Made by a program: the position numbers and the translations under genes
Shown: positions 4,247-23,891 of the stretch, in pieces
Layout of the letters: each line of letters opens with the position of its first letter
Position numbering within the stretch: the stretch's first letter is position 1
The notes under the pieces: model-generated
Database searches by the model: none
What the model saw: the letters and a program-made list of their open reading frames with translations, nothing else
Told to the model about the DNA's origin: nothing
Assembly (NCBI RefSeq): GCF_024171565.1
Contig: NZ_JALJZZ010000001.1
Coordinates: 248,001 to 312,000 of the forward strand
Source: Okibacterium sp. HSC-33S16
GTDB taxonomy: Bacteria > Actinomycetota > Actinomycetes > Actinomycetales > Microbacteriaceae
Length of the DNA: 64,000 bases
Reading direction: 5' to 3'

Positions 4247-5003
4247 ACCTCGCATCACCCTTTTGCAGCAGTCGACCGCAGACGTCACGGACGAAGAAAT
4301 CCTCGACCTTTATTCGACGCCAGACCGGTCAAGCCCGTGGCTTCGGGTGAACTTCATTTCCAGTATCGACGGGGCGGCGACGGCCAACGGGTTGAGCGGC
4401 GATTTAGGGTCCCCGGCCGATCGCCGGGTCTTCGACTTGCTGCGTCGGTTGTCCGACGTCATCGTGGTGGGCGCTGGCACTGTTCGTGCGGAGGGCTACG
4501 GACCGATGCGGCTCGACGACGCGTCGGTCGAGTGGAGGATGCAGCACGGTTTGCCGCCGCACCCCGTGTTCGCGATTGTGTCGTCATCGCTCAATCTGGA
4601 TCCGGAATCAGCGATCTTCACGGGCGCACCTATTCGTCCCATCGTGGTCACGGTAGACGAGGTGTCGGAACGTCGGCGCGAGCGTTTTTCCGAAGTGGCC
4701 GACGTCCTTGTCGCGGGACGGTCGTCCGTCGACACGGTGCTCATGCGACAGTCGTTATGCCGACGTGGGTTGACGCAAATGCACTGTGAGGGCGGACCGA
4801 GCTTCTTCGCTGACCTCATCCGTGAAGACACGGTCGATGAGCTTTGTTTGACCGTGAGGTCAGTGTTGGAGGGGCCGGGCGCGCCGCGCATCGTGGCGGG
4901 AGCGCCAGTCGAGCTTCGGCGTGACTTCGACGTCGTCCACGCGCTGAACGCGGACGACGCTCTGCTCCTGCGGTACGTCCGTAAGGCGGCCGCCAAGGTT
5001 TAA
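4239..5003 (+). CDS. pyrimidine/pteridine reductase-family protein (RibD C-terminal domain)
   Basis: This 254-residue protein matches the RibD_C / dihydrofolate reductase-like fold: SSIDGAATANGLSGDLGSPAD near the N terminus, VIVVGAGTVRAEGYGP (NADPH loop), then HCEGGPSFFADLI and the C-terminal LTVRSVLEGPGAPRIVAG. There is no deaminase domain, so it is a stand-alone reductase. Its ATGAGTAA start overlaps the stop of the FolP-like gene. From memory, the mycobacterial homolog Rv2671 can reduce dihydrofolate when overexpressed; with a FolP-like partner a pterin substrate is a reasonable inference, but riboflavin-type reduction remains possible. It converges with the XPB gene with a 4-bp overlap. 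Confidence 0.85.
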   Translation: MSKPRITLLQQSTADVTDEEILDLYSTPDRSSPWLRVNFISSIDGAATANGLSGDLGSPADRRVFDLLRRLSDVIVVGAGTVRAEGYGPMRLDDASVEWRMQHGLPPHPVFAIVSSSLNLDPESAIFTGAPIRPIVVTVDEVSERRRERFSEVADVLVAGRSSVDTVLMRQSLCRRGLTQMHCEGGPSFFADLIREDTVDELCLTVRSVLEGPGAPRIVAGAPVELRRDFDVVHALNADDALLLRYVRKAAAKV

Positions 5004-6640
5004 GCCGCGATGGAGTTCGCGTCGAGGATCGTGTAGCTGTAACCCTGCTCGGCGAGGAAGCGCTGACGGTTCTGCGCGAAGTCCTGATCGACGGTGTCCC
5101 GCGCGACCAGTGTGTAGAAGTTCGCGCTCAGGCCGGATTCTTTCGGCCGGAGCAGGCGGCCGAGGCGTTGTGCCTCTTCCTGACGTGATCCGAACGATCC
5201 GGAGACCTGAATCGCTACTGTGGCTTCAGGAAGGTCGACGGAAAAGTTTGCAACCTTGGAGACGACCAGGACGGTGATCTCGCCCTGGCGGAAGGCCTGG
5301 AACAAGCGCTCTCGCTCGTCGACCGGTGTTGAGCCGGTGAGCTTAGGCGCGTCGAGCTCCTCCGCGAGTTCGTCGATCTGGTCGAGGTACTGCCCGATGA
5401 CAAGGATCCGTTCGCCCTTGTGCCGGGCAACCAGGTCACGCACGACGTCGAGCTTTGCCGGCGCCGTGGCGGCCAGCCGATAGCGCTCGTCATCGGCCGC
5501 AGCAGCATAGGTCAGCCGTTCCGACTGCGGCAGGTCAATGCGCACCTCGTAACAGGTGGCGGGGGAGATGTACCCCTGGGCTTCGATCTCCTTCCATGGG
5601 GCGTCGAATCGCTTCGGTCCGATCAGGCTGAAGACATCGCCTTCGCGACCGTCTTCTCGTACGAGTGTCGCGGTCAATCCCAGTCGACGCCGGGCCTGCA
5701 ACTCGGCCGTCAGCTTGAAGACCGGTGCGGGGAGGAGATGAACTTCGTCGTAAACGACCAGTCCCCAGTCCATGGCGTCGAGCAGCGCAAGGTGGGCGTA
5801 CTCACCCTTCCGCTTGGCCGTCAGGATCTGGTAGGTGGCAATAGTGACAGGTTTGACTTCTTTGACTTGGCCGGAATACTCACCGATCTCCTCTTCGGTG
5901 AGGCTCGTACGGCGCAGCAGCTCGTCCCGCCACTGCCGCGCGGACACAGTATTGGTGACCAGAATCAGGGTGTTTGTTTTCGCGGTGGCCATCGCGCCCG
6001 CTCCGACGAGCGTCTTTCCAGCGCCACAAGGGAGGACAACGACGCCCGAGCCGCCTTCGAAGAAGTTGTCGATGGCCTTCTGCTGGTACCCGCGCAGGTG
6101 CCAATCCTCGAGCGTCAGATCAATCTGGTGCGGTGTTCCCGGCGTGTATCCGGCAAGGTCTTCCGCGGGCCAGCCCAGCTTCACGAGTTCCTGCTTGAGC
6201 TGCCCGCGGGCCCACGTGTCGACGAGATAGGTGTCGGGAGTGGGGTGGCCGATGAGAAGCGGCGCGATCTTCTTCGCACCTGCGATCTCCGTCAGGACCG
6301 CTTCGTCTGTCGAGCGAAGAACGAGCTGGTTCTCGTCGTCCCGCTCGATGATAAGGCGGCCGTAGCGCGACACGGTCTCTGCGATGTCGAGGGAGACGGT
6401 GGTTGGGATGGCGAACTTCGAATACTTCTCGAGGGTGGCCAGCATGTCGTCGGAGTTGTGGCCGGCGGCGCGAGCGTTCCAGAGCCCGAGGCGAGTGATC
6501 CGGTAGGTGTGGATGTGCTCGGGGGCGCGCTCGAGCTCGGCGAAGACAGCAAGGTCATGTCGCGCGTCCTCGGCGAGGGGATGAGCGACCTCGAGCAGAA
6601 CAGTGCGGTCACTCTGGACGATCAGTGGGCCATCAGACAT
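5000..6640 (-). CDS. XPB-type DNA repair helicase
   Basis: This 546-residue SF2 helicase begins with the actinobacterial XPB N-terminal domain. Walker A is LPCGAGKT (about residue 203-210), the Walker B box is DEVH within VVYDEVHLLPAP, motif III is LTATLVREDGREGD and motif VI is EEAQRLGRLLRP. It should be an ATP-dependent 3'-5' DNA translocase/helicase acting in nucleotide excision repair or transcription-coupled processes. The next gene upstream on the same strand encodes an XPB/Ssl2-like helicase-associated protein, a pairing also found in mycobacteria (Rv0861c/Rv0862c, from memory). Confidence 0.95.
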   Translation of the reverse strand: MSDGPLIVQSDRTVLLEVAHPLAEDARHDLAVFAELERAPEHIHTYRITRLGLWNARAAGHNSDDMLATLEKYSKFAIPTTVSLDIAETVSRYGRLIIERDDENQLVLRSTDEAVLTEIAGAKKIAPLLIGHPTPDTYLVDTWARGQLKQELVKLGWPAEDLAGYTPGTPHQIDLTLEDWHLRGYQQKAIDNFFEGGSGVVVLPCGAGKTLVGAGAMATAKTNTLILVTNTVSARQWRDELLRRTSLTEEEIGEYSGQVKEVKPVTIATYQILTAKRKGEYAHLALLDAMDWGLVVYDEVHLLPAPVFKLTAELQARRRLGLTATLVREDGREGDVFSLIGPKRFDAPWKEIEAQGYISPATCYEVRIDLPQSERLTYAAAADDERYRLAATAPAKLDVVRDLVARHKGERILVIGQYLDQIDELAEELDAPKLTGSTPVDERERLFQAFRQGEITVLVVSKVANFSVDLPEATVAIQVSGSFGSRQEEAQRLGRLLRPKESGLSANFYTLVARDTVDQDFAQNRQRFLAEQGYSYTILDANSIAA

Positions 6641-6683
6641 AACTAGAAACCCTATAACCGAAGGCTGGGAACGACGTCTGTCT

Positions 6684-8537
6684 CTATTTCAATTCGAGGA
6701 TGCTTGAGAGCGGGAGCGTGCGCTCGATGTCGGCCCGTTTGTCGCGGGCTCGCAACCGGCCGCCGGATACGCCGGTGGGTTCGAGCACAAAGTCGAGTGG
6801 GCCGGCGCCGGGCACCTGCACGGTAACCGTCACCGTTTGCTTCGCGCGGATGGCCGCGTCCAACTGGCGCGCAACCCAGGCCTGCCGTGAGTCACCCGCC
6901 GACTCAGCTTCGGCTGCGCGGAGGTTCGCGAGCAGCTCGGCATGGTCGGGCTTGCTCTCGATGATGGGAACTGTGGCCATTCGCTGGCGGCGCAGGCTGA
7001 GGAGCGACCCGTCGGGATTCTCGGCCGCGACGGGGTACCGGGCATCACTGAGCGCCCAGAACACCACCTCGAACTCGAACCGGCTGACGAGTTGCAGGTG
7101 CCCGGTGCGGCGAAGCCCGATCGGGCCAAGGGCCTGATCCACCTCGAGCAGCCCGATCATCGAGCTGTCCGGCGATCGAACGTAGCTGCGCACGTCAGGA
7201 TCACTCGAAGATCCCGACGCCACCATCCCGACCCGGACGGTGCCGAATCGCGCCGCCGCCTGCGAGATGAGGTAGTGCACGGGCTGTGGAATCCCGGTGA
7301 GTGAAATGCTCTCGAGGAAGGCGAGCATGTCCTCGGCCGATCCACCGGCGGACAGGCCCCGGTTTACGCTCTCCGGCGAGAGCCGGTAACTGTACGCCTG
7401 CGCCCGGTTCTCCAGCTCGGCAAACGCCCGCAGCCGAAGGTCGAGCTCAGGGTGCAGCGGCCCGGGAGCAATGATCGAGAGGTCGTGCTGCAGGTAGACC
7501 TGCCGAACGTGGGCGGGAAAAAGGGGAGCCATCGCGCTCGCTGCTGCCGTGGCATCCCCTGTCAAGAGAAGTGAACCGGCCGTGCTCAGGACCTGTGTGG
7601 ACGGCGATGGTCCGCTCGTGATGCCGAGAAGAGCCGCATGTGCGGCCACCCGGGCAACCGCCTCGCGAATCCAGTCCCCGCCGGCGGGGTAGAGCCAGTG
7701 TGCGTAGGCGTGCAGCGCGTCACCCCAGTTGGCCCTGGCGCTGAGTACCGAACGCACCTCAAGTGGGATGGCATCGAGCCATGCGGCCGCGAGGGCCTGC
7801 CAGCGGTGGTCAGTCGTCGTGTGCAGCCACGCCTCACCGGCCGCTGTCGGGTGCCAGCCGCCGGGCTCGTGCGACGCCAGGCCGCTGCGCACCGCGAGGT
7901 CGAGGTGACTGTCGACCGCGGGCTCATCGACCTGCATGGCGTGGGCCAGGCGGCGCCGTTCGGGCAGGGCAGGGCCGCCCTTGCCCAATTCCCGGGCCGG
8001 GTGAGAGAGAAGCTCGACGATCAGCTCGGCGGTCGCCATGGTCGTCGAGAACGCCCGTTCAGCGGCGGCAGGATCACTCACTGACACGGATGCCCCTGCG
8101 CGCGCCCCAGGGACGGCCGGCGGTTCGATGGTGGCCAGTTCGGCAAGGTCCGGAAGTCCAGCCTTGGGCCAGCCGTCGAGCACAGCCGAGACCGCGATCA
8201 AAGCGGCGTAGCCGGTGGCTGACCGGGTGAGGAGTGCAAGGTCGACGGCCGCATCGGCGCGCTCGGTCACCTGCTCGGCGCTGAGCGTGCCGATGCGTTC
8301 GGCGAGTTCGGGCGCACCGCTGGGCTCGTGCGTTGCGGCGGCGAGCACGGCAAGCGTGTGCCGGTCGAGACGCTGCAGGATCGCCCGGATGCTGGTCGGA
8401 TCGAGGAGCGACTCGGCTAGGTCGAAAAAGTCCTTGACCCGGCCGCGAGCGGAGAGGGGACGTCGAGTGAGGAGGTTCTCGAGCGATGCATCGTCCCGCA
8501 AGCGAAGGCTGCCTGCGAGGGTCATAATGTCCGTCAT
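6684..8537 (-). CDS. helicase-associated domain protein (XPB/Ssl2-like)
   Basis: This 617-residue protein sits 43 bp upstream of the XPB helicase on the same strand. Its N-terminal half is alpha-helical and rich in Ala and Leu (DALENLLTRRPLS-like start, winged-helix-like repeats). A central region near 340-480 (QVYLQHDLSIIAPGPLHPELDLRLRAFAELENRAQAYSYRLSPESVNRGL) matches the helicase C-terminal-like/XPB_Ssl2 domain without a Walker motif. A small C-terminal beta domain follows. I infer a non-catalytic partner of the neighbouring XPB helicase. The biochemical role is not established to my knowledge. Confidence 0.85.
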   Translation of the reverse strand: MTDIMTLAGSLRLRDDASLENLLTRRPLSARGRVKDFFDLAESLLDPTSIRAILQRLDRHTLAVLAAATHEPSGAPELAERIGTLSAEQVTERADAAVDLALLTRSATGYAALIAVSAVLDGWPKAGLPDLAELATIEPPAVPGARAGASVSVSDPAAAERAFSTTMATAELIVELLSHPARELGKGGPALPERRRLAHAMQVDEPAVDSHLDLAVRSGLASHEPGGWHPTAAGEAWLHTTTDHRWQALAAAWLDAIPLEVRSVLSARANWGDALHAYAHWLYPAGGDWIREAVARVAAHAALLGITSGPSPSTQVLSTAGSLLLTGDATAAASAMAPLFPAHVRQVYLQHDLSIIAPGPLHPELDLRLRAFAELENRAQAYSYRLSPESVNRGLSAGGSAEDMLAFLESISLTGIPQPVHYLISQAAARFGTVRVGMVASGSSSDPDVRSYVRSPDSSMIGLLEVDQALGPIGLRRTGHLQLVSRFEFEVVFWALSDARYPVAAENPDGSLLSLRRQRMATVPIIESKPDHAELLANLRAAEAESAGDSRQAWVARQLDAAIRAKQTVTVTVQVPGAGPLDFVLEPTGVSGGRLRARDKRADIERTLPLSSILELK

Positions 8538-12626: not shown

Positions 12627-13496
12627 TTGGCCGTAAACAGTAACCCAGAGCCGTTCGACGGCGCGTCGGAGAATATCGACCCGTCGACGTCGCACCAGGT
12701 GGCTGTCGCCTCGTCGCGTTCGGTTCGCTCATTCCAGCGGACTGTAGCGACAGGAACACCGCTAGCCCGCTCCGCGAAGCCTGCTTCCAATGAAGCTGGG
12801 TGGCGCAAGTTCCGGTCGACGGCCATCATGGCGATTCTCGTACCGGGGCTCTTCGGAACCGTCGCCCTTCCCGCCTACGCATTTTCTCCGACCGCTGACG
12901 ACACCGCATCGTCGGCGTCGTCACTGCAGACGCTCAAAGAATCCGGCGCGCAATCGCTGTCCGTTGACGAAGGAGTGACGGCAGCAGCCGTCGTCCGTGA
13001 TGGATACTCGGCGACCACCGCAGCCGAACTTGCGAACGCCCGCGCCGTGGCTGAGGCAGCTGAAGCAACAGCGCGCCGCGCCACCTTCGCCACCCAACAG
13101 ACGTCCTTCTCCGGCCCGAGCGCGTCTGATTACCTCGCAAATCCGCCGTACCCGAATTTTAGCCTCGACCAGGTGTTCAACGTCGCGCTGCAGTACCAGG
13201 GCGTTCCATATGTGTACGGTGGCGCCACCCCGGCTGGTTTCGACTGCTCGGGCTTCGTGAAGTATGTTTACGCGCAGTTCGGCATCGACATGCCGCACTC
13301 GTCGACCGCTCAGGGCAACATGGGGACTCGAATTGCCGTCGAAGACGCCGTCCCGGGCGACCTCGTCGTAAGTTCCGGTCACATTGGCTTCTACGCGGGA
13401 AATGGCATGATTCTTCACGCATCCCGTCCCGGAACCCCGCTCCGTATCGGCCCCATCTACGCCGACAACTGGTGGATCGTCCGGATCGGTATCTAA
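12627..13496 (+). CDS. NlpC/P60-family cell-wall hydrolase (C40 peptidase)
   Basis: A TTG start at 12627 is supported by GGAGG upstream. The protein (289 residues) has a long hydrophilic N terminus, a membrane/signal segment near residues 65-85, a linker with GAQSLSV and RDGYSAT followed by an Ala/Glu-rich helix, and a C-terminal NlpC/P60 domain with catalytic Cys207 in FDCSGF, His252 in SGHIGFY and His264 in ILHAS. It should be exported and cleave peptide stems of peptidoglycan. The linker resembles that of the M23 protein at 38515. The upstream region carries MtrA-like repeats. Confidence 0.92.
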   Translation: MAVNSNPEPFDGASENIDPSTSHQVAVASSRSVRSFQRTVATGTPLARSAKPASNEAGWRKFRSTAIMAILVPGLFGTVALPAYAFSPTADDTASSASSLQTLKESGAQSLSVDEGVTAAAVVRDGYSATTAAELANARAVAEAAEATARRATFATQQTSFSGPSASDYLANPPYPNFSLDQVFNVALQYQGVPYVYGGATPAGFDCSGFVKYVYAQFGIDMPHSSTAQGNMGTRIAVEDAVPGDLVVSSGHIGFYAGNGMILHASRPGTPLRIGPIYADNWWIVRIGI

Positions 13497-13542
13497 GAAC
13501 TGATTCAACCCGCAGATGTCCAGTTGATGACATTCAGCTAGG

Positions 13543-13574
13543 AATGGCGTGCTTCCATGCGGAAGTACGCCATT
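13543..13574 (+). terminator. terminator after the NlpC/P60 gene
   Basis: Two arms (13543-13556 and 13561-13574) pair over 14 positions with one G-T wobble around an ATGC loop, 47 bp after the stop codon and followed by TTG. It most likely ends the hydrolase transcript. Confidence 0.7.
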
Positions 13575-13589
13575 TGTGCGTTACATTAA

Positions 13590-13753
13590 ATGCCTGACCT
13601 CAGGAAGAAGTTGCGGAACGCTCATGATTCGACAAGCCGGTATCCACACCACGGATGCGTGCGCTTGCCCGGGCCGTGAGCATTTCGGTTCACTCTGTTT
13701 CAGCCACGATGTGAGTTGAGATTAGGCGCAGTCTGCATAGACTGCGCCTTTTG
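13590..13753 (+). ncRNA. candidate short transcript with its own terminator (possible sRNA or leader)
   Basis: About 150 bp separates the terminator at 13543-13574 from a second, classical terminator at 13724-13753, with no annotated gene between. The layout suggests an independent short transcript. Two short overlapping frames exist (29 codons from 13590, 31 codons from 13624 ending at 13719), neither with a convincing ribosome binding site. It could instead be a remnant or a leader. I do not recognise an RNA family. Confidence 0.3.
13724..13753 (+). terminator. Rho-independent terminator
   Basis: A perfect 11-bp stem (13724-13734 with 13739-13749) closes on GCAT and is followed by TTTTGTTT. 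It precedes the HNH gene, so it must end an upstream transcript. Confidence 0.9.
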
Positions 13754-13835
13754 TTTACCCGGATCCTCTTTTCTGCCTCCGGTCAGGACACCGAATAACC
13801 GCGAAGCCGTCGCGGCCGTTTGAGAGGAAAAGCAC

Positions 13836-14336
13836 ATGCGCACACTTGTGTTGAATGCCGGATACGAGCCACTCGCCATCGTCTCGTTCCGCCGGGCACT
13901 CGTCCTGGTAATGAATGAGAAGGCGGCCATCATCGAAGTCGATGCGGACCACCCGGTCTGGGGCTCGGATGGAGTGCACGAACGGCCAGCCGTCATCGTG
14001 CTCAATCGGTATGTGCGTATTCCCAATTCTCGCCGTGTGCCGGTAACGCGCCGCGGCGTCCTTCGCCGCGATGCGAACCGTTGTGGGTACTGCGGAAAGG
14101 CGGCCGCGACCATCGATCATGTGATCCCGCGCTCACGCGGGGGCGAGGACTCCTGGGAGAACCTCGTCGCGTGTTGTCTGCGGTGCAACAACGCGAAGAG
14201 CAATCGGACGCCCGCCGAGATGGGTTGGTCGCTCCGTACCAAGCCGCGGATGCCCCACGGCCCGACGTGGGCGGTGCGTGGAGCGGAAAAAGCGATTCCC
14301 GCATGGGACCCGTACCTGACTCCTGCTGCGGCTTGA
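13836..14336 (+). CDS. HNH endonuclease family protein
   Basis: This 166-residue protein belongs to a family widespread in actinobacteria and cyanobacteria. The N-terminal ~70 residues (VLNAGYEPLAIVSFRRALVL) form a conserved lead domain; the C-terminal HNH domain has CGYCG, TIDHVIPRSRGGEDSWENLV and CCLRCNNAKSNRTP, which give two zinc-knuckle CxxC pairs and the catalytic His. The AGAGGAAAA ribosome binding site is good. It has no adjacent methyltransferase or phage genes, so a housekeeping or DNA-processing role is more likely than restriction. The substrate is unknown. Confidence 0.9.
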   Translation: MRTLVLNAGYEPLAIVSFRRALVLVMNEKAAIIEVDADHPVWGSDGVHERPAVIVLNRYVRIPNSRRVPVTRRGVLRRDANRCGYCGKAAATIDHVIPRSRGGEDSWENLVACCLRCNNAKSNRTPAEMGWSLRTKPRMPHGPTWAVRGAEKAIPAWDPYLTPAAA

Positions 14337-15250: not shown

Positions 15251-17089
15251 TCATCGAAGAAAACTGAGGTAGGACAGAGCATCTGCCACTTGTCGTTCCG
15301 GTGCTTGGGCATCCGTCAGGCGGTCCCGCTCGCGTACAGCGACGTCCGGGATGTCCGTAACGATGCCGTCGACTCCCATCCGGATCAGACTCCGAATCGC
15401 TGGCTCCTCGTTCACAGTCCAGACGTAGACCGGTTTTCCACGTCTGTGAGCTTCGGTGAGGAACTCCGGTGTGAAGGACCCCTGCTCAATGACGAAGAAG
15501 TCACAGTCGAGTCGAGGGACGTCGCCCACGCTGAGTGCGATGGTGTACCCAACACGCAAGTGGGGCCGACGCTCTTTCAAATCCGCCACTACATCGGCAT
15601 TCAGCGAGTGGTACGTGTTCTGATCCGTGTCGTCAATGCTGTCTAGTTCTGTGAGGAACCGGTCGAGGAAGTCGGGGCTTTCGTGGCCATGAATTTTCAA
15701 TTCGATCATGAGGGGCACCTTGAGCTCGGCGGCGCGACCGACGTAGTCGACCATCGAAGGGATCTTGCCGGTGAAGCCACCTTGATATTGCTCGACGGCA
15801 GTGGCTTCCCGAAGCGTCATGTTGAAAATATCCTCGTTCAGCCCGGCGACCATCAGCAGGTTTGTGTCGTGGCTGGCGACGAAATAGCCATCTGCGGTTT
15901 GCTGCATGTCGACCTCGACATAGTCGGGATGCGTCCGTGCAGCAGCCTCCAGCGCCTCGATGGTGTTCTCAACACCTCCGCCAACGAAACCACGGTGAGC
16001 CAAGATTGCCGCGTCAGATCGTCCGGACGAAGCGGAAGCCATGGTCGGGCCGGCGCTGAGCTGACTCACCGCAATTGAAGCGATCACCACGACTGCGAGA
16101 CCAACCATCCGATGCGCCATTGAGAGCGGCGCGCGTGCAGTGTGCTGTTTCGCTGGGACGCTGGGGAGACCCAGGTCGTCCCTGGTCAATCGAACGAGAA
16201 TTTGAAGGACGACGACTGTCGCCGCGCCAATGAGGATGAAGCCAAATGCGTGTCCCATCGCGATGATCGCGGAAGCGATTGCCGGACCAGAGCCTTCCGT
16301 GTTCGCCGTCAGGAACACCAGGACCTCGACGAGGAAGGATCCGGCCACCGCGGCGGCGCCAATCGACAGTCCCAAGGCTCCAGCGACGTGCCAGAGCCCC
16401 GATCGGGTGGCCTTGAAGCTCCGGGCGAACGCCTTTGCAAGTGGCTCTCTGCCGACAATCATCGTCGGAAGGATCAACGACAAGCGCAGATTGAGGTAGA
16501 TAACGATGCCGACGAAAGCGGCGCAACCCAGAGCGCCAATGGGAGTCTTCATGAATTCGCGAGTGACAAACTGAGGCACAACCGAATCGGGCATCAGGGC
16601 GGATGCAAGTCCAACCCCCGCTAACGGAATAACAAGGACAAGGTAGAACAGCAGCAGGGGAAACTGAACATGGAGGATCTTTCGAAGTGCCTTGCCGGTG
16701 TTCAACATCACCGCTGACATAGTGGTGGGCAGACCGGACTGCTGCCGGTTGATCATGATCACGGTCGCGGAGAGCTGCACGCCCAGTGCTGCAAGGGCGA
16801 TCACGGCGATCGCGAAGAGCAGGAGGTCTGCGAGCGGTGCAGACAGCAGCGAGAGGAGCGTGCGGTCCGTGACATTTTCAAGGCCCGACACCCGGAGTGC
16901 GAGAGTAAACAGCGCACGAATCGCGGGAATGACGGCGAAGTAGTTGACCGCCTGCAGAATCGCGATTACCACGAGGTACCGCGTCAGGTTGGCCCGCGTC
17001 CTCCGCAGAGCGGACGACACGAGCTCCGTCGTTGGCGCGAAGTAGTTCCTGCAACGGGTGTAAAAGGGGACTGGCTGGCCTGCCGTCAT
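15251..17089 (-). CDS. membrane-anchored glycerophosphodiester phosphodiesterase
   Basis: The 612-residue protein has an N-terminal glycerophosphoryl diester phosphodiesterase membrane domain with about seven hydrophobic helices (residues 35-340). After it comes a C-terminal GDPD TIM barrel starting at AILAHRGFVGGGVENTIEA (near 362), with the metal and substrate residues VEVDMQQTADGYFVASHD and MIELKIHG. The catalytic domain probably faces outside and hydrolyses glycerophosphodiesters, or lipid- or teichoic-acid-derived diesters, to glycerol phosphate and an alcohol. This fusion is best known from Firmicutes. It stands alone between the small gene and the divergent helicase-like gene. Confidence 0.9.
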   Translation of the reverse strand: MTAGQPVPFYTRCRNYFAPTTELVSSALRRTRANLTRYLVVIAILQAVNYFAVIPAIRALFTLALRVSGLENVTDRTLLSLLSAPLADLLLFAIAVIALAALGVQLSATVIMINRQQSGLPTTMSAVMLNTGKALRKILHVQFPLLLFYLVLVIPLAGVGLASALMPDSVVPQFVTREFMKTPIGALGCAAFVGIVIYLNLRLSLILPTMIVGREPLAKAFARSFKATRSGLWHVAGALGLSIGAAAVAGSFLVEVLVFLTANTEGSGPAIASAIIAMGHAFGFILIGAATVVVLQILVRLTRDDLGLPSVPAKQHTARAPLSMAHRMVGLAVVVIASIAVSQLSAGPTMASASSGRSDAAILAHRGFVGGGVENTIEALEAAARTHPDYVEVDMQQTADGYFVASHDTNLLMVAGLNEDIFNMTLREATAVEQYQGGFTGKIPSMVDYVGRAAELKVPLMIELKIHGHESPDFLDRFLTELDSIDDTDQNTYHSLNADVVADLKERRPHLRVGYTIALSVGDVPRLDCDFFVIEQGSFTPEFLTEAHRRGKPVYVWTVNEEPAIRSLIRMGVDGIVTDIPDVAVRERDRLTDAQAPERQVADALSYLSFLR

Positions 17090-17365: not shown

Positions 17366-20300
17366 GTGGATGTGTGGCGGCTAGACAAGAAACCAGAGAC
17401 GCGCGATTCAGACATCGCTGACGTCGATACTTCGCTTGCGCGTTCAGTCACCAGTCCCACTGGTCTGAGCGTGGGAGACCCCAATTACACGGTGGGAAAC
17501 GTGGCAGACGAGACCCGGAAGCGGTGGCGCGAGCACCTCGCGACCGTCGGCGGGCCGTCGCCGCTGCTGCACTTCGTAGATGAGCCGAGGAACCGCATCG
17601 AGCTGAGTTCCACCCACCCCGGCGGGCTACCGCAGTTCATCACCGGGCACTCGACGCTGCTCTCGAACCTCATCCGTGACGAACTCGCTCTCCGCGGCGC
17701 AAAGGCGGCGGCCGACCAGATCACGGTCAAGGGCGTCGAGTTGCGTACCGTCCGTGGTATCGAGTCCGTTCATCTGGCCATCGGCCTCGCCCAGTGGCGA
17801 TTTGGCGACGAGGATTTCTCGGCACCGGTTCTGCTCCGACCCGTGGCGATTCGTCGTTACGGCCGTGACTTCGAGCTCAAGCTCAAGGGAAGCCCGTTCC
17901 TCAACCCCGAACTGGCCCGTGCACTGCACGAGCAGTTCAAGATCACGCTCGACGCCGAGGCCTTCGAAGCGCTCGCCGTGACGAATGGGGCGTTCAAGCC
18001 GCAGCCCGTCATCGACCGGCTGCGCGGCCTCACGCAACACCTCGAGTGGTTCAGCGTCCAGCCTCGCCTCGTTGTCTCATCCTTCGCAGATATCGGAACA
18101 GCGCTCGCTCGCGATGCGAAAGATCTTGACCACCCCATTCTCAACGCGCTCGCCGGTAACCCCGGCGCCCGCCGTCTCGTCGAGGGACTTTTCAGCCCTG
18201 TCGACGCCGTTGGCCAGGACGACCGGCCGCCAACAACCGACACACTCCTCCTCGACGCGGACACCGAGCAGGAGAATGTTATTGCTCAAATTGCGGCTGG
18301 ACATTCCATCGTCGTGACGACTCTTCCAGGGACCGGTGGGACCCAGACGGTGGTTAACGCCATCGGCAGCCTCGTTTCACAACACAAGCGCGTCCTCGTC
18401 GTCAGCGCTCGACGTTCCAGCCTCGATGGCATCCGTCATCGTTTCTCCAAGGTGGGCCTTCCCGGATTCACCGTCTCACCCGCGACGATTCGCCGCGACT
18501 TGATCCAGGCCATCTCCCGAAACGAGAAGGCGGTCGCACCCAAGGTTGCGGACGTCGACGACGCCCTCGTTCGCCTGCGCAAGGTACTCCTCGACTACCG
18601 CGGCTCGCTCAGCCGTATTGATAGCGGGCTTGGAGTGAGCGTCATCGATGCGCTTCAGGCGTTGACCCGACTGGGTAACCTGCCGGACCAGCCGACCACG
18701 ACGGCCCGGCTGGACCTCGCCTCCCTGGAGAAACTTGCCGGCAACCGCGAAATCATCGCTCGCAAGTTGGCGACCGCTGCCGCGCTCGGAGAATTCCAGT
18801 ACGGTCCCGACGATTCACCGTGGTACGGCGCCCAGTTCGCCAGCACCAAGCAAGCCAAGGCCACGCACGACCTCGCGAAGAAGCTGCACCGCACGGAGCT
18901 TCCGCGACTGCTTGAACGCGGTTATGAACTCATCGGGCAGACCCGGATGCGCGCATTTGAGTCCATCGAAGAGCTCGGAATTTACCTGCGCTTGCTCCTC
19001 GACATTCGCGAGACTCTCGACAAGTTCCAGCCGAGCGTCTTTGACCGGTCGCTGGGTGAGCTCATCGCGGCCACTAGTGCCCGCCGTGACGCGCCGAGTA
19101 TGACGAGCGCGAACCGGCGTCGTCTCAAGAAACTGGCACGCGAATACGTACGGCCCGGCGTGCACGTTGCTGACATCAACGCGGCTCTGCGCCGGATCCA
19201 GCAGCAGCGCACCCTTTGGCAGCGTTACGTCGCCGCGGGCGTCAATCCTGAAGTTCCACTCGGAATCGCTGACGTTCAGGTTGCATACCAGCGCGTCGTC
19301 GAAGACCTTTCGCAACTCGATGCTCCCCTCAGCCGCACCGCGAAGACCGAATCGCTCGTGGCGATGCCCGTCAAGGAACTCGTTCGGTTGATGTCCGGGC
19401 TTGCAGCGGACTCGGCTGTGATGGAGAACCTGCAGGAGCGAACAACACTCATCGCCGAGCTTCGGGAGAAGGGGCTCGCTCCGCTGATCACCGACCTCTC
19501 GGTGCGCCACGTGCCAGAAGCGCGGGTCGCCAACGAGCTGGAGCTTGCCTGGTGGCAGTCGGTCCTCGAGCACATGCTCACCACCGACAAGGCCCTGCTC
19601 GGTGCAAACACCAGCGTCATCGACCGGCTCGAGGCGGACTTCCGTCTTGTCGACGAGGCACACGCTTCTTCCTCGGGCGCTCTGCTCGGCGCACTCCTCG
19701 CGGAAAACTGGAAGATCGGACTCGTCGATTATCCCGACGAAGCGACCGCACTCAAGAAGCTTCTGCGCGCTGACCAGACATCGCCCGCGAAGCTCGAGAG
19801 CACGGCTCCGCACCTGTCACGCGTTCTTTCACCGGTATGGCTCACCTCTGCGTACGAGGTCCACCTCATCCCCGAGAACGTCCGTTTCGACACCGTGTTC
19901 CTCGTTGACGCGGGTGCCACGACGCTGGCCGAGAACGCCGGCGCCATTCGCCGCGCCCGCCAGGTAATCGCTGTGGGCGACCCGGTCACGCAGAGCCCGA
20001 CTCCATTCACCGTCGCAATCGGCGCCCCCGCTCCGGCCGCCGAAGCGGACGACGTTGACGCGCGCCACGCCGACTCAGCGCTGGCCCGGCTCTCCGGTCT
20101 GCTCCCGACGCTCACACTCACGCGCAGCTACCGCGCCGGAGGAGAAGATCTCGCCGAGCTCGTCAACCACCGGTTCTACGGCGGCGAGATCGAGTCCCTG
20201 CCGTGGGCAGGTTCCTTCCTGGGCCACGGCAGCCTCACGCTCGACTACGTGCCAAACGGGCACGGCATGCCCGACCCTGAGACCGGGGGAGTGGAGAGTG

Positions 20301-21172
20301 TCGACGCCGAAGTTGCCCGCGTGGTCAACCTCGTGCTCGAGCACGCCATCAACCGTCCGCGTGAGTCGCTGATGGTCGTGACCGCGAGTGAGAAGCACGC
20401 AACCCGCGTGCACCAGGCCGTCATTTCCGCCTTCGCCATGCGCAGCGACCTCTCTGACTTCATTCTTAAAGAGCGACCAGAGCCATTCACCGTTCTCACC
20501 CTCGAGCAGTCTGTCGCCGAGAGCCGGGACCGCGTGATCTTCTCTCTCGGCTATGGGGTGACACCGCACGGTCGCGTCTTGTCCAATTTTGGTGCCCTTG
20601 CCCGGCCGGGCGGGGACCGGCTGCTCGCCGTAGGCATGACTCGTGCTCGCCGCTCGATGGTCATTGTCTCGTGCATTCGCCCCGAAGACATTGACACCGA
20701 CCGCATGCAACACGGAATCGGCGCCCTCGCCGAGATCCTCAAGCAGCCCGTCCAGCACGTGCCCGCTCCGCCGGCCACCGACGGTGCTGAACCGATGCTC
20801 ATCGACCTGGCAGAGCGGCTCTACCGCCAGGGCCTGTCCGTCGAGGTCGGCTACCGCGGCAAGCTCGCGCTGGTCGCCGCGTACCAGGGCAAAGCGATTG
20901 CCGTCGAGTCTGACCCCGAAGTGAGCAGCGACTCTTTGCGTGAGTCCCTGAGGTTGCGGCCAGACGTGCTCCGCCGACTGGGCTGGCATTACCTTCGCGT
21001 TCACAGCTTCGACCTGTTCAGCGATCCCGACGGCGTGGCACGTAAGATCCTCACAATGCTCGGTGTCCCTGCGCCGGTGAAGGCCGGCGATGCCGGAACT
21101 TCACAGGTGACGGATGCCACAGAGCACGACACACAAACCCTCGAAAGTCTCGAAGACGGGCACGTAAACTAG
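17366..21172 (+). CDS. SF1 helicase-like protein with degenerate ATPase site and C-terminal REase_MTES_1575-like domain
   Basis: The 1268-residue protein has the layout of DUF4011-type SF1 helicases: an N-terminal region (HFVDEPRNRIELSSTHPGG), an ATPase core split by a ~480-residue helical insert, and a C-terminal Vsr/REase-like domain. The Walker A position reads LPGTGGTQT near residues 320-328, where relatives have PPGTGKSQT, so the catalytic Lys is Gly. Walker B reads FLVDAGATT near 848 instead of VDEASQ. Motifs III (VGDPVTQSPTPF), IV (RSYRAGGEDLAELVNHRFY), V and VI (VGMTRARRSMV) are preserved. The terminal domain keeps AVESD and LGWHYLRVHS but has Lys where RIDL-type nucleases carry the Asp. 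I infer a structural or DNA-binding role rather than an active helicase. The GTG at 17366 is the first possible start. Confidence 0.8.
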   Translation: MDVWRLDKKPETRDSDIADVDTSLARSVTSPTGLSVGDPNYTVGNVADETRKRWREHLATVGGPSPLLHFVDEPRNRIELSSTHPGGLPQFITGHSTLLSNLIRDELALRGAKAAADQITVKGVELRTVRGIESVHLAIGLAQWRFGDEDFSAPVLLRPVAIRRYGRDFELKLKGSPFLNPELARALHEQFKITLDAEAFEALAVTNGAFKPQPVIDRLRGLTQHLEWFSVQPRLVVSSFADIGTALARDAKDLDHPILNALAGNPGARRLVEGLFSPVDAVGQDDRPPTTDTLLLDADTEQENVIAQIAAGHSIVVTTLPGTGGTQTVVNAIGSLVSQHKRVLVVSARRSSLDGIRHRFSKVGLPGFTVSPATIRRDLIQAISRNEKAVAPKVADVDDALVRLRKVLLDYRGSLSRIDSGLGVSVIDALQALTRLGNLPDQPTTTARLDLASLEKLAGNREIIARKLATAAALGEFQYGPDDSPWYGAQFASTKQAKATHDLAKKLHRTELPRLLERGYELIGQTRMRAFESIEELGIYLRLLLDIRETLDKFQPSVFDRSLGELIAATSARRDAPSMTSANRRRLKKLAREYVRPGVHVADINAALRRIQQQRTLWQRYVAAGVNPEVPLGIADVQVAYQRVVEDLSQLDAPLSRTAKTESLVAMPVKELVRLMSGLAADSAVMENLQERTTLIAELREKGLAPLITDLSVRHVPEARVANELELAWWQSVLEHMLTTDKALLGANTSVIDRLEADFRLVDEAHASSSGALLGALLAENWKIGLVDYPDEATALKKLLRADQTSPAKLESTAPHLSRVLSPVWLTSAYEVHLIPENVRFDTVFLVDAGATTLAENAGAIRRARQVIAVGDPVTQSPTPFTVAIGAPAPAAEADDVDARHADSALARLSGLLPTLTLTRSYRAGGEDLAELVNHRFYGGEIESLPWAGSFLGHGSLTLDYVPNGHGMPDPETGGVESVDAEVARVVNLVLEHAINRPRESLMVVTASEKHATRVHQAVISAFAMRSDLSDFILKERPEPFTVLTLEQSVAESRDRVIFSLGYGVTPHGRVLSNFGALARPGGDRLLAVGMTRARRSMVIVSCIRPEDIDTDRMQHGIGALAEILKQPVQHVPAPPATDGAEPMLIDLAERLYRQGLSVEVGYRGKLALVAAYQGKAIAVESDPEVSSDSLRESLRLRPDVLRRLGWHYLRVHSFDLFSDPDGVARKILTMLGVPAPVKAGDAGTSQVTDATEHDTQTLESLEDGHVN

Positions 21173-21510: not shown

Positions 21511-21915
21511 TTACTGCTTGAGGTTGTTTCGTGCGAGCAGGTCACGAATCTCGGTCAGCACATCGATTTCGGTGACCGGTGCTTCCTCCTCGACAATTCC
21601 GGCCTTTCGCTTCGCTTCGGCGTGCTTCTTCATCGTGTTGATGGGAAGAACGAAGACGAAGTACACCACAGCCGCGACAATCAGGAATGTGATGACGGCG
21701 CCGATGACAGCGCCGAGCTTGACCTCAGCATTCCCGATGGGAATGTCGATGGCGTTCGTGAGATCGTCGGCGTTGAACAGTGCCCCGATGAGCGGGTTGA
21801 AGATGTTCTCCACGATCGAATTCACGACAGCGGTGAATGCGGCTCCCACCACGACGGCGACGGCAAGGTCAATGACATTGCCCCGCATGATGAAGTCTTT
21901 GAATCCCTTGAGCAC
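21511..21915 (-). CDS. mscL: large-conductance mechanosensitive channel
   Basis: This 134-residue protein starts at the GTG at 21915 (LKGFKDFIMRGNVIDLAVAVVVGAAF), which has a purine-rich GAAGGGGG upstream and matches the usual N terminus; an ATG at 21930 (+5 residues) overlaps the preceding stop but has no ribosome binding site. It has two transmembrane helices (TM1 about 14-40, TM2 about 66-95) and a charged C-terminal helix bundle. As a homopentamer it opens on membrane tension and releases solutes during hypo-osmotic shock. It follows the FmdB gene directly. Confidence 0.96.
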   Translation of the reverse strand: MLKGFKDFIMRGNVIDLAVAVVVGAAFTAVVNSIVENIFNPLIGALFNADDLTNAIDIPIGNAEVKLGAVIGAVITFLIVAAVVYFVFVLPINTMKKHAEAKRKAGIVEEEAPVTEIDVLTEIRDLLARNNLKQ

Positions 21916-21929
21916 GCTGCCCCCTTCCA

Positions 21930-22244
21930 TTACGACGCGGCAGCGGAACTGCTGGGCGTCGACGATCCAGTCGATGAGCCGGTCGATGAGCCGGATGTCG
22001 TCGACGATACCTTCTCGCCTGCCGGCTTCGACTCTTTCTTCGTACTCGACGTGTTCTTCGCTGTCGAGGCGCGCGAGTCGTTGCGGTAGAAACCGGAGCC
22101 ATTGAACGACACTCCGACGGCGCTATACAACTTGCGAAGCTTTCCCTGGCATTCGGGGCACTCGGTCAGCGAGTCGTCGGTGAACGACTGCTGGATGTCG
22201 AAAGCGGTGTCGCAGATGGTGCATTTGTATGAGTACGTGGGCAT
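21930..22244 (-). CDS. FmdB-family zinc ribbon protein
   Basis: The 104-residue protein begins MPTYSYKCTICDTAFD and has CPEC further on, giving the two CxxC pairs of the FmdB putative regulatory zinc ribbon, followed by FNGSGFYRND. The last ~45 residues are a low-complexity Ser/Thr/Gly/Lys tail encoded in part by short tandem repeats. Members occur next to mscL and 5-FCL in actinobacteria. The molecular role is unresolved; the DNA/RNA-regulator label comes from the original fmd operon. Confidence 0.88.
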   Translation of the reverse strand: MPTYSYKCTICDTAFDIQQSFTDDSLTECPECQGKLRKLYSAVGVSFNGSGFYRNDSRASTAKNTSSTKKESKPAGEKVSSTTSGSSTGSSTGSSTPSSSAAAS

Positions 22245-22297
22245 AGAAAATTCCTGAAAATAGATGCGGCGTCGTGCCGGCGGAGTCGAGGTGACGC

Positions 22298-22876
22298 TTA
22301 GAACTCGACGATGTTTGATGGGGTGACAACCCCGTTGACCCGCTGGTCGTGCTTTTCGTGCGGGACGTCAGGTTGGACTTCATTGTCAAAGACGATGGCG
22401 TAGACCGGAGGGCATTTTTCCATGGAGCCCAAGGTCTTGTCGAAGAAACCGCGGCCCCAGCCCATGCGCATTCCGTCGGGGCTGACCGCGGCTGCCGGAA
22501 CCAGGATGAGGTCCACTTCGTTGATCGCTATGGGGCCCAGGGGCTCGCCGACCGGTTCCGGCATGCCGTAGAGGCCCTCAACCTCGGTTCCCGACTCGCC
22601 GACGGTCCAGTCGAGCAGTCCGTCTTCGCGGCTGATGGGGAAGAGCACTCGAATGTCGTGGGCCAGCGCCCAGTTGAGAAACGGGCGAGTGTCGGGCTCG
22701 TTGGGGGAGGAGAGGTAACACGCGACACTCGACGCACTCAGCGCGGTGACGAGGGCGATGAGGTTGTTGGTGATGCCGATCGAAGCGTTCTCGCGCTCCG
22801 AAGCGGTCAGGTTCTGGCGCCGCTCGCGCAACTCTGCGCGCAGTGCGCGCTTCTGGTGGTCCACCTGGCTGGGCAT
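22298..22876 (-). CDS. 5-formyltetrahydrofolate cyclo-ligase
   Basis: The 192-residue protein has the family pattern: basic N terminus KRALRAELRERRQNL, substrate region VDLILVPAAAVSPDGMRMGWGRGFFDK with the GxGxGxxD-like loop, and a C-terminal HDQRVNGVVTPSNIVEF. It converts 5-formyl-THF with ATP to 5,10-methenyl-THF and so returns stored formyl-folate to one-carbon metabolism. It is divergent from galU with about 120 bp between them, the same arrangement as Rv0992c/Rv0993 in M. tuberculosis (from memory). Confidence 0.93.
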   Translation of the reverse strand: MPSQVDHQKRALRAELRERRQNLTASERENASIGITNNLIALVTALSASSVACYLSSPNEPDTRPFLNWALAHDIRVLFPISREDGLLDWTVGESGTEVEGLYGMPEPVGEPLGPIAINEVDLILVPAAAVSPDGMRMGWGRGFFDKTLGSMEKCPPVYAIVFDNEVQPDVPHEKHDQRVNGVVTPSNIVEF

Positions 22877-22985
22877 AGCCCCATTCTAGGCGGGCGTTAC
22901 GGGAGAAACGGCATAAGGGACATCTGCGCGGACTTCCCACACCTGAGGGGAGATGTCGCAACACCAACTCGCCGCAGCGTCCCGC

Positions 22986-22997
22986 TACGCTGGAACC
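22986..22997 (+). promoter_or_regulatory. leaderless-type -10 element of galU
   Basis: TACGCT at 22986-22991 is followed by only 6 nt before the ATG at 22998, so transcription would begin at or within a base or two of the start codon. There is no Shine-Dalgarno. Confidence 0.55.
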
Positions 22998-23891
22998 ATG
23001 TCTCAGCCCGTACGCAAAGTCGTGATTCCTGCCGCAGGCCTCGGAACCCGGTTCCTTCCGGCGACCAAGGCCCTCCCGAAAGAGATGCTGCCTGTCGTAG
23101 ACAAGCCGGCCATCCAGTACGTCGTGGAGGAGGCCGTCAGCGCCGGACTCAACGACGTTCTGATGATCATCGGACGCAACAAGAACGCGTTGGCCAACCA
23201 CTTCGACCGCGTGACCGAGCTTGAGCTCGCACTGCAGGAGAAGGGAGACAAGAGCCGCCTGAACCGCGTCGTCGAGTCCAGCGAACTCGCTGACATACAC
23301 TTTCTCCGCCAGGGCGACCCGAAGGGCCTCGGCCACGCCGTGCTTCGGGCACGCCGCCACGTCGGCAACGAGCCGTTCGCGGTTCTCCTCGGTGACGACC
23401 TGATCGACGCCCGAGACCCGCTGCTGACGACCATGATCGAGGAGCAGGAAAGCCGCTCAGCCACCATCATCGCCCTCATGGAGGTCGACCCGGCCACCAT
23501 CTCGATGTACGGCTGCGCGGCCGTTGAAGCGACCGACAACCCTGACGTTGTCAAGGTCACCGGTCTGGTCGAGAAGCCGGCACCCGAAGACGCTCCGTCC
23601 AACCTTGCCATCATCGGCCGGTACGTGCTTCGCCCAGAGATCTTCGATGTCCTCGAAACCACCGAACCCGGCAAGGGCGGCGAGATCCAATTGACGGATG
23701 CCATGCAGGTGCTGGCGGCGGACGACACGATCGCGGGCGGCGTCTACGGCGTCATCTTCCGCGGCCGACGCTACGACACCGGTGACCGCCTCGACTACAT
23801 CAAGGCCATCATCCAGCTTGCTTCTGACCGAGAAGACCTCGGTGCCGACCTCAAGCCGTGGATCAAGGAATTCGCCGACAAGCTCGACTAG
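22998..23891 (+). CDS. galU: UTP-glucose-1-phosphate uridylyltransferase
   Basis: The 297-residue nucleotidyltransferase has the GalU signature near its start (VVIPAAGLGTRFLPATKALPKEMLPV), DKPAIQYVVEEAVSAGL, HAVLRARRHVG, a metal-binding LLGDDLID and GLVEKPAPEDAPSNLAIIGRYVL. It makes UDP-glucose for cell-wall polymers and trehalose-type sugars. The start is the ATG at 22998, not the upstream in-frame ATG at 22953. The acetyltransferase gene follows after 31 bp; the molybdopterin gene moeA/glp often found at this position is absent. Confidence 0.96.
   Translation: MSQPVRKVVIPAAGLGTRFLPATKALPKEMLPVVDKPAIQYVVEEAVSAGLNDVLMIIGRNKNALANHFDRVTELELALQEKGDKSRLNRVVESSELADIHFLRQGDPKGLGHAVLRARRHVGNEPFAVLLGDDLIDARDPLLTTMIEEQESRSATIIALMEVDPATISMYGCAAVEATDNPDVVKVTGLVEKPAPEDAPSNLAIIGRYVLRPEIFDVLETTEPGKGGEIQLTDAMQVLAADDTIAGGVYGVIFRGRRYDTGDRLDYIKAIIQLASDREDLGADLKPWIKEFADKLD

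Follow-up and report, generated by a model that had tools for sequence, protein, structure and literature searches.

Among the closest described systems, the inactivated superfamily 1 (SF1) helicase domains of AddB and RecC are proposed scanners for specific single-stranded DNA, in the part of PMC4824097 that treats them, and PriA of Deinococcus radiodurans, in which the Walker A lysine is replaced by arginine, binds DNA and has no ATPase activity, according to the portion of PMC4504706 on this protein. Proteins that join a helicase to a Vsr nuclease were proposed as defense proteins in the relevant section of PMC3710099, which is the source of the name MTES_1575. Here, we describe a gene in a 64,000-nucleotide stretch of the genome of Okibacterium sp. 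HSC-33S16 (contig NZ_JALJZZ010000001.1, positions 248,001 to 312,000; hereafter the window), a member of the Microbacteriaceae, whose product carries relics of both a helicase and such a nuclease. On balance, we favor the reading that it is an ancient, selected pseudohelicase, which is encoded by a vertically inherited Micrococcales core gene and would act as a non-hydrolyzing nucleic-acid-binding scaffold. The pseudohelicase is a known kind of protein, and what is new is a core gene that spans an order and has undergone losses repeatedly; no description of this family as a pseudohelicase was recognized in full-text searches of the open-access literature.

The gene and the parts of its product are located as follows.

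17366..21172, + strand: predicted pseudohelicase-pseudonuclease gene, 1268 aa, GTG start
17516..18250, + strand: DUF4011-like N-terminal region, residues ~51-295; no variation at H84, P85, L102 and R104 across an alignment of 35 homologs
18266..18274, + strand: Q-motif region, residues 301-303; Gln302 in 55/55
18323..18349, + strand: Walker A relic LPGTGGTQT, residues 320-328; Gly325 (18338-18340) occupies the Lys column
19904..19909, + strand: remnant of Walker B, residues 847-848, with V847 at the Asp position and D848 at the Glu position
20132..20134, + strand: motif IV Arg923, retained in 55/55
20489..20545, + strand: motif V region, residues 1042-1060, degraded; Q, G and E columns mostly V, A and S in the family
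20639..20653, + strand: motif VI TRARR, residues 1092-1096, retained
20843..21058, + strand: remnant of an MTES_1575-like nuclease domain, residues ~1160-1231; Asp column occupied by A1168, R1194/D1195 columns altered, E1181 and D1183 retained

As the sequence-only reading of this DNA had stated, the open reading frame is uninterrupted across its 1268 codons. The first ~45 residues are poorly conserved, and the real start may sit slightly downstream; the tail beyond residue 1235 is unconserved. The Pfam scan gave sub-threshold matches only, including AAA domains, DUF4011 (19.2 bits, cut-off 22.2) and, at residues 1161-1231, the MTES_1575 nuclease (PF18741; 28.2 bits, cut-off 38.2), against which P0002, an ortholog with an intact ATPase, scores 75.8 bits. 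A profile of 35 homologs searched against the PDB reaches Upf1/NAM7, IGHMBP2 (SMUBP-2), SEN1 and DNA2, and these matches identify the motor fold, as far as profile similarity tells, as Upf1-like and of the subclass that we take to be SF1B. A single-sequence PDB search gave just a weak match to ribosomal protein S6 (E 0.36).

The motifs were compared in an alignment of 55 of the 72 Microbacteriaceae copies (the window included) and 35 of the 47 copies from elsewhere in the order, and in a second sample of 80 named Microbacteriaceae-type loci. The column of the Walker A lysine was placed via hidden Markov model (HMM) alignment to yeast Upf1/NAM7. At this column, where active SF1 enzymes read GK[ST], the glycine noted earlier was recovered as Gly325, and lysine is found in none of the 55 family rows (Gly 42, Ala 6, Ser 2, Tyr 2, Ile 1, Val 1, Leu 1) and in none of the 80 named loci (Gly 74, Ala 3, Ser 3). 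Because lysine is missing throughout both samples, its absence is, on these alignments, neither chance nor a local mutation. The Walker B site is degenerate as well, although the earlier description of its Asp-Glu pair as Asp-Ala was off by one residue. In the gap-free alignment of FDTVFLVDAG in the window protein with FDVVVFDEAS in intact orthologs, and in the same register given by the NAM7 HMM alignment, V847 stands in the Asp column and D848 in the Glu column. The Asp-Glu pair of active SF1 enzymes is thus absent from all 55 rows, with residue 847 being Val in 44, Leu in 9 and Ala in 2, and residue 848 being Asp in 54 and Gly in 1; D848 is also present in 80/80 named loci.

Motifs III to VI had been described as intact, which holds only in part. 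The arginines of motifs IV and VI that mark active SF1 enzymes are retained (R923 in 55 rows, R1093 in 52, R1095 in 54), together with Q302 (55), T326 (54), Q327 (55) and D1055 (55), and Q302, T326, R923, R1093 and R1095 are found in all 80 named loci. In contrast, motif V is degraded, as the columns of Q1050, G1051 and E1053, which read Q, G and E in intact orthologs, are mostly V, A and S, and residues 875-876 of motif III are changed from Gln-Leu in intact copies to mostly Thr-Gln in the family. Since the phosphate-binding lysine and the first Walker B acid are absent in 55/55, catalysis has probably been lost; and because the protein retains the arginines as well as its N-terminal and middle regions, the remaining role is likely to be binding.

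We give only a small chance to the alternative that ATP is still hydrolyzed at a non-canonical site, with D848 as the base and another basic residue replacing Lys325. The near-invariant D848 and the retained R923, R1093, R1095, T326 and Q302 would suit such a site, and at position 920 of motif IV, 50/55 rows carry a basic residue (Arg or Lys) in place of the Trp of intact copies. However, both Lys325 and the first Walker B Asp are missing throughout the family, and a change of K to R alone abolishes the ATPase activity of E. coli PriA, as cited in the portion of PMC4504706 mentioned above. A strict scan for residues gained relative to intact orthologs returned 31 positions, and the basic ones (R164, R1056 and H1213) are distant in sequence from the P-loop, which is not decisive. 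The D. radiodurans PriA described in the same portion resembles the window protein in its clade-wide loss of the Walker A lysine (to Arg) and its poor Walker B, with DNA binding retained; however, it is another helicase, whereas the lysine has been lost several times over among the relatives of the window protein, and their nuclease is affected too.

The direction of change follows from orthologs in other families. The sequence-only reading had called for a comparison with orthologs bearing intact motifs: none exists among the aligned family copies, and orthologs of the intact GK[ST]QT/DEAS type occupy this locus in f5 and part of f18, the only two families of the order in which they were seen. 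They therefore give the direction of change and do not contradict a selected loss. In the lysine-bearing genomes read (L039, L040, L041, L116 and L122), mscL lies convergently downstream in 4/5. Further loci from other families have lysine in 0/40; these represent 39 new genomes, as L310 (genome G366) repeats the genome of L172. A phylum-wide search found matches at E <= 1e-100 in 10/296 genomes, 5 of them outside the class, and all 5 are intact at Walker A and Walker B; the intact query and strict threshold favor intact copies, and calling such hits sporadic rests on these 5. No mscL block was seen in the short flanks of these five copies. In family f36, the gene is present in 22/22 genomes, and the 9 copies read have Arg in the Lys column; the orthology of these copies is less sure because mscL is visible in the short flanks of just 3/9 loci.

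Trees were built from 81 and from 42 chosen rows. The 81-row tree (motif columns removed, rooted on seven long intact relatives, LG+G4 without mixture model) requires 4 changes of the lysine state, and its starred, well-supported branches force 4. The 42-row tree under LG+G4 without mixture model also gives 4 changes, of which 3 are forced by starred branches, with 3-5 in bootstraps; repeating these 42 rows with a mixture model again gives 4 changes, 3 of them forced, and a different branch order within f18. A single lysine-less clade was rejected by the approximately unbiased (AU) test (p=0.0041, 42 rows), a test that presumes a group named beforehand and was here run after the first tree had been viewed. 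Uneven letter make-up was flagged in many tree rows. Since intact motifs are found in the outgroup and in the two rows at the base of the tree, the changes of the lysine state are read as losses, and the rooted trees show the descent from an active-type helicase, with catalytic residues lost, that is expected of a pseudohelicase.

The losses are graded. Two copies (L141 and L144) lack the lysine and retain the Walker B Glu; families f6 and f7 lack the lysine and have the nuclease Asp in 6/6 tree rows and 10/12 further copies; the Microbacteriaceae lack both the Walker lysine and the nuclease Asp. The earlier proposal of a coordinated loss at three positions is therefore not supported, as the losses are stepwise across relatives. 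In other lysine-less families, the pocket residues Thr326 and R923 are present in just 8/21 and 5/21 copies, respectively, and the pocket is also eroded in the small genomes of family f4.

A homolog was found in 72/72 Microbacteriaceae genomes (that of the window included) and in 47/47 other genomes of the order (protein search, E <= 0.001). With the intact ortholog P0002 as query, 288/297 order genomes match at E <= 1e-40, and a profile search rescues 7 of the 9 misses, which gives 295/297; the remaining two are assemblies of 170 and 580 contigs. A match in these order-wide counts means a homolog, and outside the Microbacteriaceae some may be longer paralogs. Even genomes of 0.8, 0.9, 0.9 and 1.1 Mb carry the gene. 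In L316-L318, from genomes of 0.8-1.1 Mb, the copies have 1205-1289 codons and a wholly eroded P-loop. The downstream side provides the syntenic anchor.

21511..23891, both strands: convergent neighbors mscL (-), fmdB (-), 5-FCL (-) and galU (+), conserved

At the 80 named loci, mscL (opposite strand, downstream) is found in 71, fmdB in 71, the 5-FCL gene in 70 and galU in 69, and several loci end earlier. The closest named locus (89%), in a comparison that may have left out the window's own record, is that of Mycetocola manganoxydans, of the Microbacteriaceae in the Micrococcales, which we take to be the family and order counted here. Clustering of the raw upstream frames of the 80 named loci, many of which are not genes, gave no cluster of more than 21 loci and thus no conserved upstream partner.

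The family names reached by the protein are those of phage-defense systems. The window protein matches anti-phage ProA (NF058533; E 7.7e-89, 298.8 bits, under the curated cut-off of 1500) and Hhe (NF042953; E 1.8e-42, 145 bits, under the curated cut-off of 2000) in NCBIfam, and PDC-S37 in PADLOC (E 4.6e-93). These matches span its helicase and nuclease parts, and intact relatives carry DUF4011, AAA_11/AAA_12 and MTES_1575 in the same order. On the other hand, the window protein lies far under the ProA cut-off, has lost catalytic residues, and is core and vertical, and the C-terminal DUF3320 of the long relative L156 (1817 aa, the sole one scanned) was not found in it. The proteins in the section of PMC3710099 cited above share the pairing of helicase and Vsr nuclease with the window protein but exceed 2000 aa and carry HEPN and wHTH domains. 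Two other papers were set aside: the conserved DUF4011 gene flanking a Pseudomonas defense hotspot, in the part of PMC10250203 describing it, is not of the window protein's family, and in the available portion of the Micrococcus luteus paper PMC8467076 no link to the window gene was seen.

Kinship to the PDC-S37/ProA/Hhe superfamily is what speaks for an immune sensor or decoy that cooperates with an active defense helicase-nuclease or protects it from attack. We consider this unlikely, and the decoy role in defense suggested earlier found no support, because the gene is a near-universal, vertical and syntenic one, unlike a defense island, and is kept even in genomes of 0.8-0.9 Mb. Moreover, no close paralog was found in the window's genome, where the next-best profile match (E 6.4e-7) is a 1054-codon frame with a UvrD helicase domain, and extra matches without a visible split-copy explanation occur in just 5/72 family genomes (G011, G015, G023, G044 and G054).

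The likeness to RecC/AddB would be one of role. The inactivated SF1 domains serve there as a nucleic-acid-reading scaffold, in the part of PMC4824097 already cited, and this role is only proposed for the window protein. An adjoining active helicase-nuclease of the RecB/AddA type is not found beside the window gene, whose neighbors are mscL, fmdB, 5-FCL and galU and whose upstream side is unconserved. A separate two-gene UvrD/PDDEXK pair, which presumably resembles AdnAB, lies elsewhere in the window's genome; because of this pair, end-resection machinery seems to be present, and by its position the pseudohelicase seems not to be the missing subunit.

In the nuclease domain, the column of the first acidic residue of the [IV]D[LF] motif of MTES_1575 (PF18741), an Asp that we assume to be catalytic, corresponds to residue 1168. 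The Asp is absent in 55/55, replaced by Ala, Gly, Pro, Thr, Gln, Ser or Arg. The loss of this Asp had been noticed from the sequence alone, but not its replacement: the column holds A1168, and the lysine named earlier is Lys1166, two residues upstream. E/D1181 (54/55) and D1183 (55/55) are retained, and the R1194/D1195 columns are altered in the family. A nuclease His (DGxxYH, position D+5) is present in 4/7 outgroup rows, 2/2 basal intact rows and 4/5 phylum copies, i.e., in 10/14 intact copies, and in 0/72 remaining tree rows. Since 13 of these 72 rows have the Walker lysine, it is suggestive that a nuclease change preceded the loss of the ATPase, although 4/14 intact controls also lack this His. 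An acid at column 1168 is found in 22/22 lysine-bearing tree rows versus 20/59 lysine-less rows, with just 4 independent pairs, too few for significance. Of the copies read from f6 and f7, families without the Walker lysine, 16/18 retain the nuclease Asp (L036, L038, L042, L055, L145, L174 and 12 further loci), and these proteins possibly combine a dead motor with a live nuclease.

For the window protein itself, we see a slim chance that a dead helicase part is joined to a C-terminal domain that still acts as a nuclease without the need for ATP. The two retained acids and the Asp of f6/f7 agree with such an activity; however, the Asp at 1168 in 0/55 Microbacteriaceae rows, the His missing in 72/72 rows and the altered R1194/D1195 columns argue against it.

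The protein is under purifying selection, as expected of a pseudohelicase that is kept family-wide. The pairwise ratio of nonsynonymous to synonymous changes (dN/dS) is 0.028-0.091 in 15 pairs among six same-genus copies (Nei-Gojobori, own script) and 0.049-0.065 in three pairs of lower dS (0.60-0.84), these ratios being approximate, as dS is ~1 or above in most pairs. Between the window and L007, L009 and L010, residues 315-332 show zero amino-acid changes. The earlier view that the gene has been kept under selection after the loss of catalytic residues agrees with the family-wide absence of the lysine, the low dN/dS, the near-universal retention down to 0.8-0.9 Mb genomes and the separate losses elsewhere. 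That the gene is decaying neutrally and about to be lost is hardly credible: several motifs are lost, P-loops are eroded in some relatives and internal stops were flagged in a few matches (G072, G074 and G087; G017, G019 and G031), but no internal stop occurs among the family matches listed, dN/dS is low, and the gene is retained across the order and in f36.

In the upstream neighborhood, a membrane glycerophosphodiester phosphodiesterase gene (GPDPase_memb and GDPD, 15251-17089, -) lies between tRNA-Arg(CCT) and the pseudohelicase gene. Since the tRNA is just ~800 bases upstream of the helicase in Mycetocola manganoxydans (L176), this gene seems to have been inserted in the window or lost in L176. 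NlpC/P60 and HNH endonuclease genes are located upstream (12627-14336, +); both adjoin the pseudohelicase in L071, L072 and L093, and the HNH gene is found in 3/80 named loci within ~6 kb. The window also contains an XPB-like helicase gene with an adjoining Helicase_C_3 domain gene (5000-8537, -).

In the favored reading of a selected pseudohelicase, the ancestral protein would have joined an SF1B helicase (Upf1/DNA2-like) to a nuclease of the MTES_1575/Vsr type and would have been kin to the PDC-S37/ProA/Hhe-type phage-defense helicase-nucleases. The Walker A lysine would have been lost in the common ancestor of the Microbacteriaceae and the majority of the other families sampled in the order, and the Microbacteriaceae would later have lost the nuclease Asp too. 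The gene would be maintained since the fold still binds something, and the protein may serve as a non-hydrolyzing scaffold or clamp on nucleic acid, in the manner of RecC/AddB, whose SF1 domains are inactivated, and of the pseudohelicase PriA. Because the Q-motif Gln, the P-loop Thr and the arginines of motifs IV and VI are retained in the Microbacteriaceae, a nucleotide or phosphate may still be bound in the former ATP pocket there, without hydrolysis.

Several points weigh against this reading. Since the pocket is eroded in other lysine-less families, nucleotide binding cannot, judging by the residues present, be the order-wide function, and a shared function cannot need ATP. No conserved operon partner was found around the 80 named loci, and the high dS makes the measure of selection approximate. 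The Glu-to-Asp change at D848, the basic residue gained at 920 and the retained E1181/D1183 make residual catalysis possible. The descent from a defense protein is drawn from family names and a few sporadic hits.

A more far-reaching version appears possible to us but doubtful. Early in actinobacterial ancestry, a phage-defense helicase-nuclease would have been domesticated at the mscL-galU locus and, after repeated loss of first the nuclease and then the ATPase, would have become a core housekeeping scaffold of the Micrococcales, i.e., a stand-alone, RecC-like nucleic-acid reader, with the Microbacteriaceae pocket acting as a non-hydrolyzing ligand sensor.

Models that score SF1 or defense helicases should be used with caution, since they can pick up proteins that probably lack enzymatic activity. 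Core genes of ~1250 codons without assigned function are few, and this one has remained core although several lineages have shed its catalytic residues, which raises the question of what the fold does without its motor. The living relatives range from an intact ATPase with the nuclease Asp, through lysine-less proteins with the nuclease Asp, to fully eroded pockets, so that each step is testable. The family may also illustrate how an immune enzyme could turn into a housekeeping protein.

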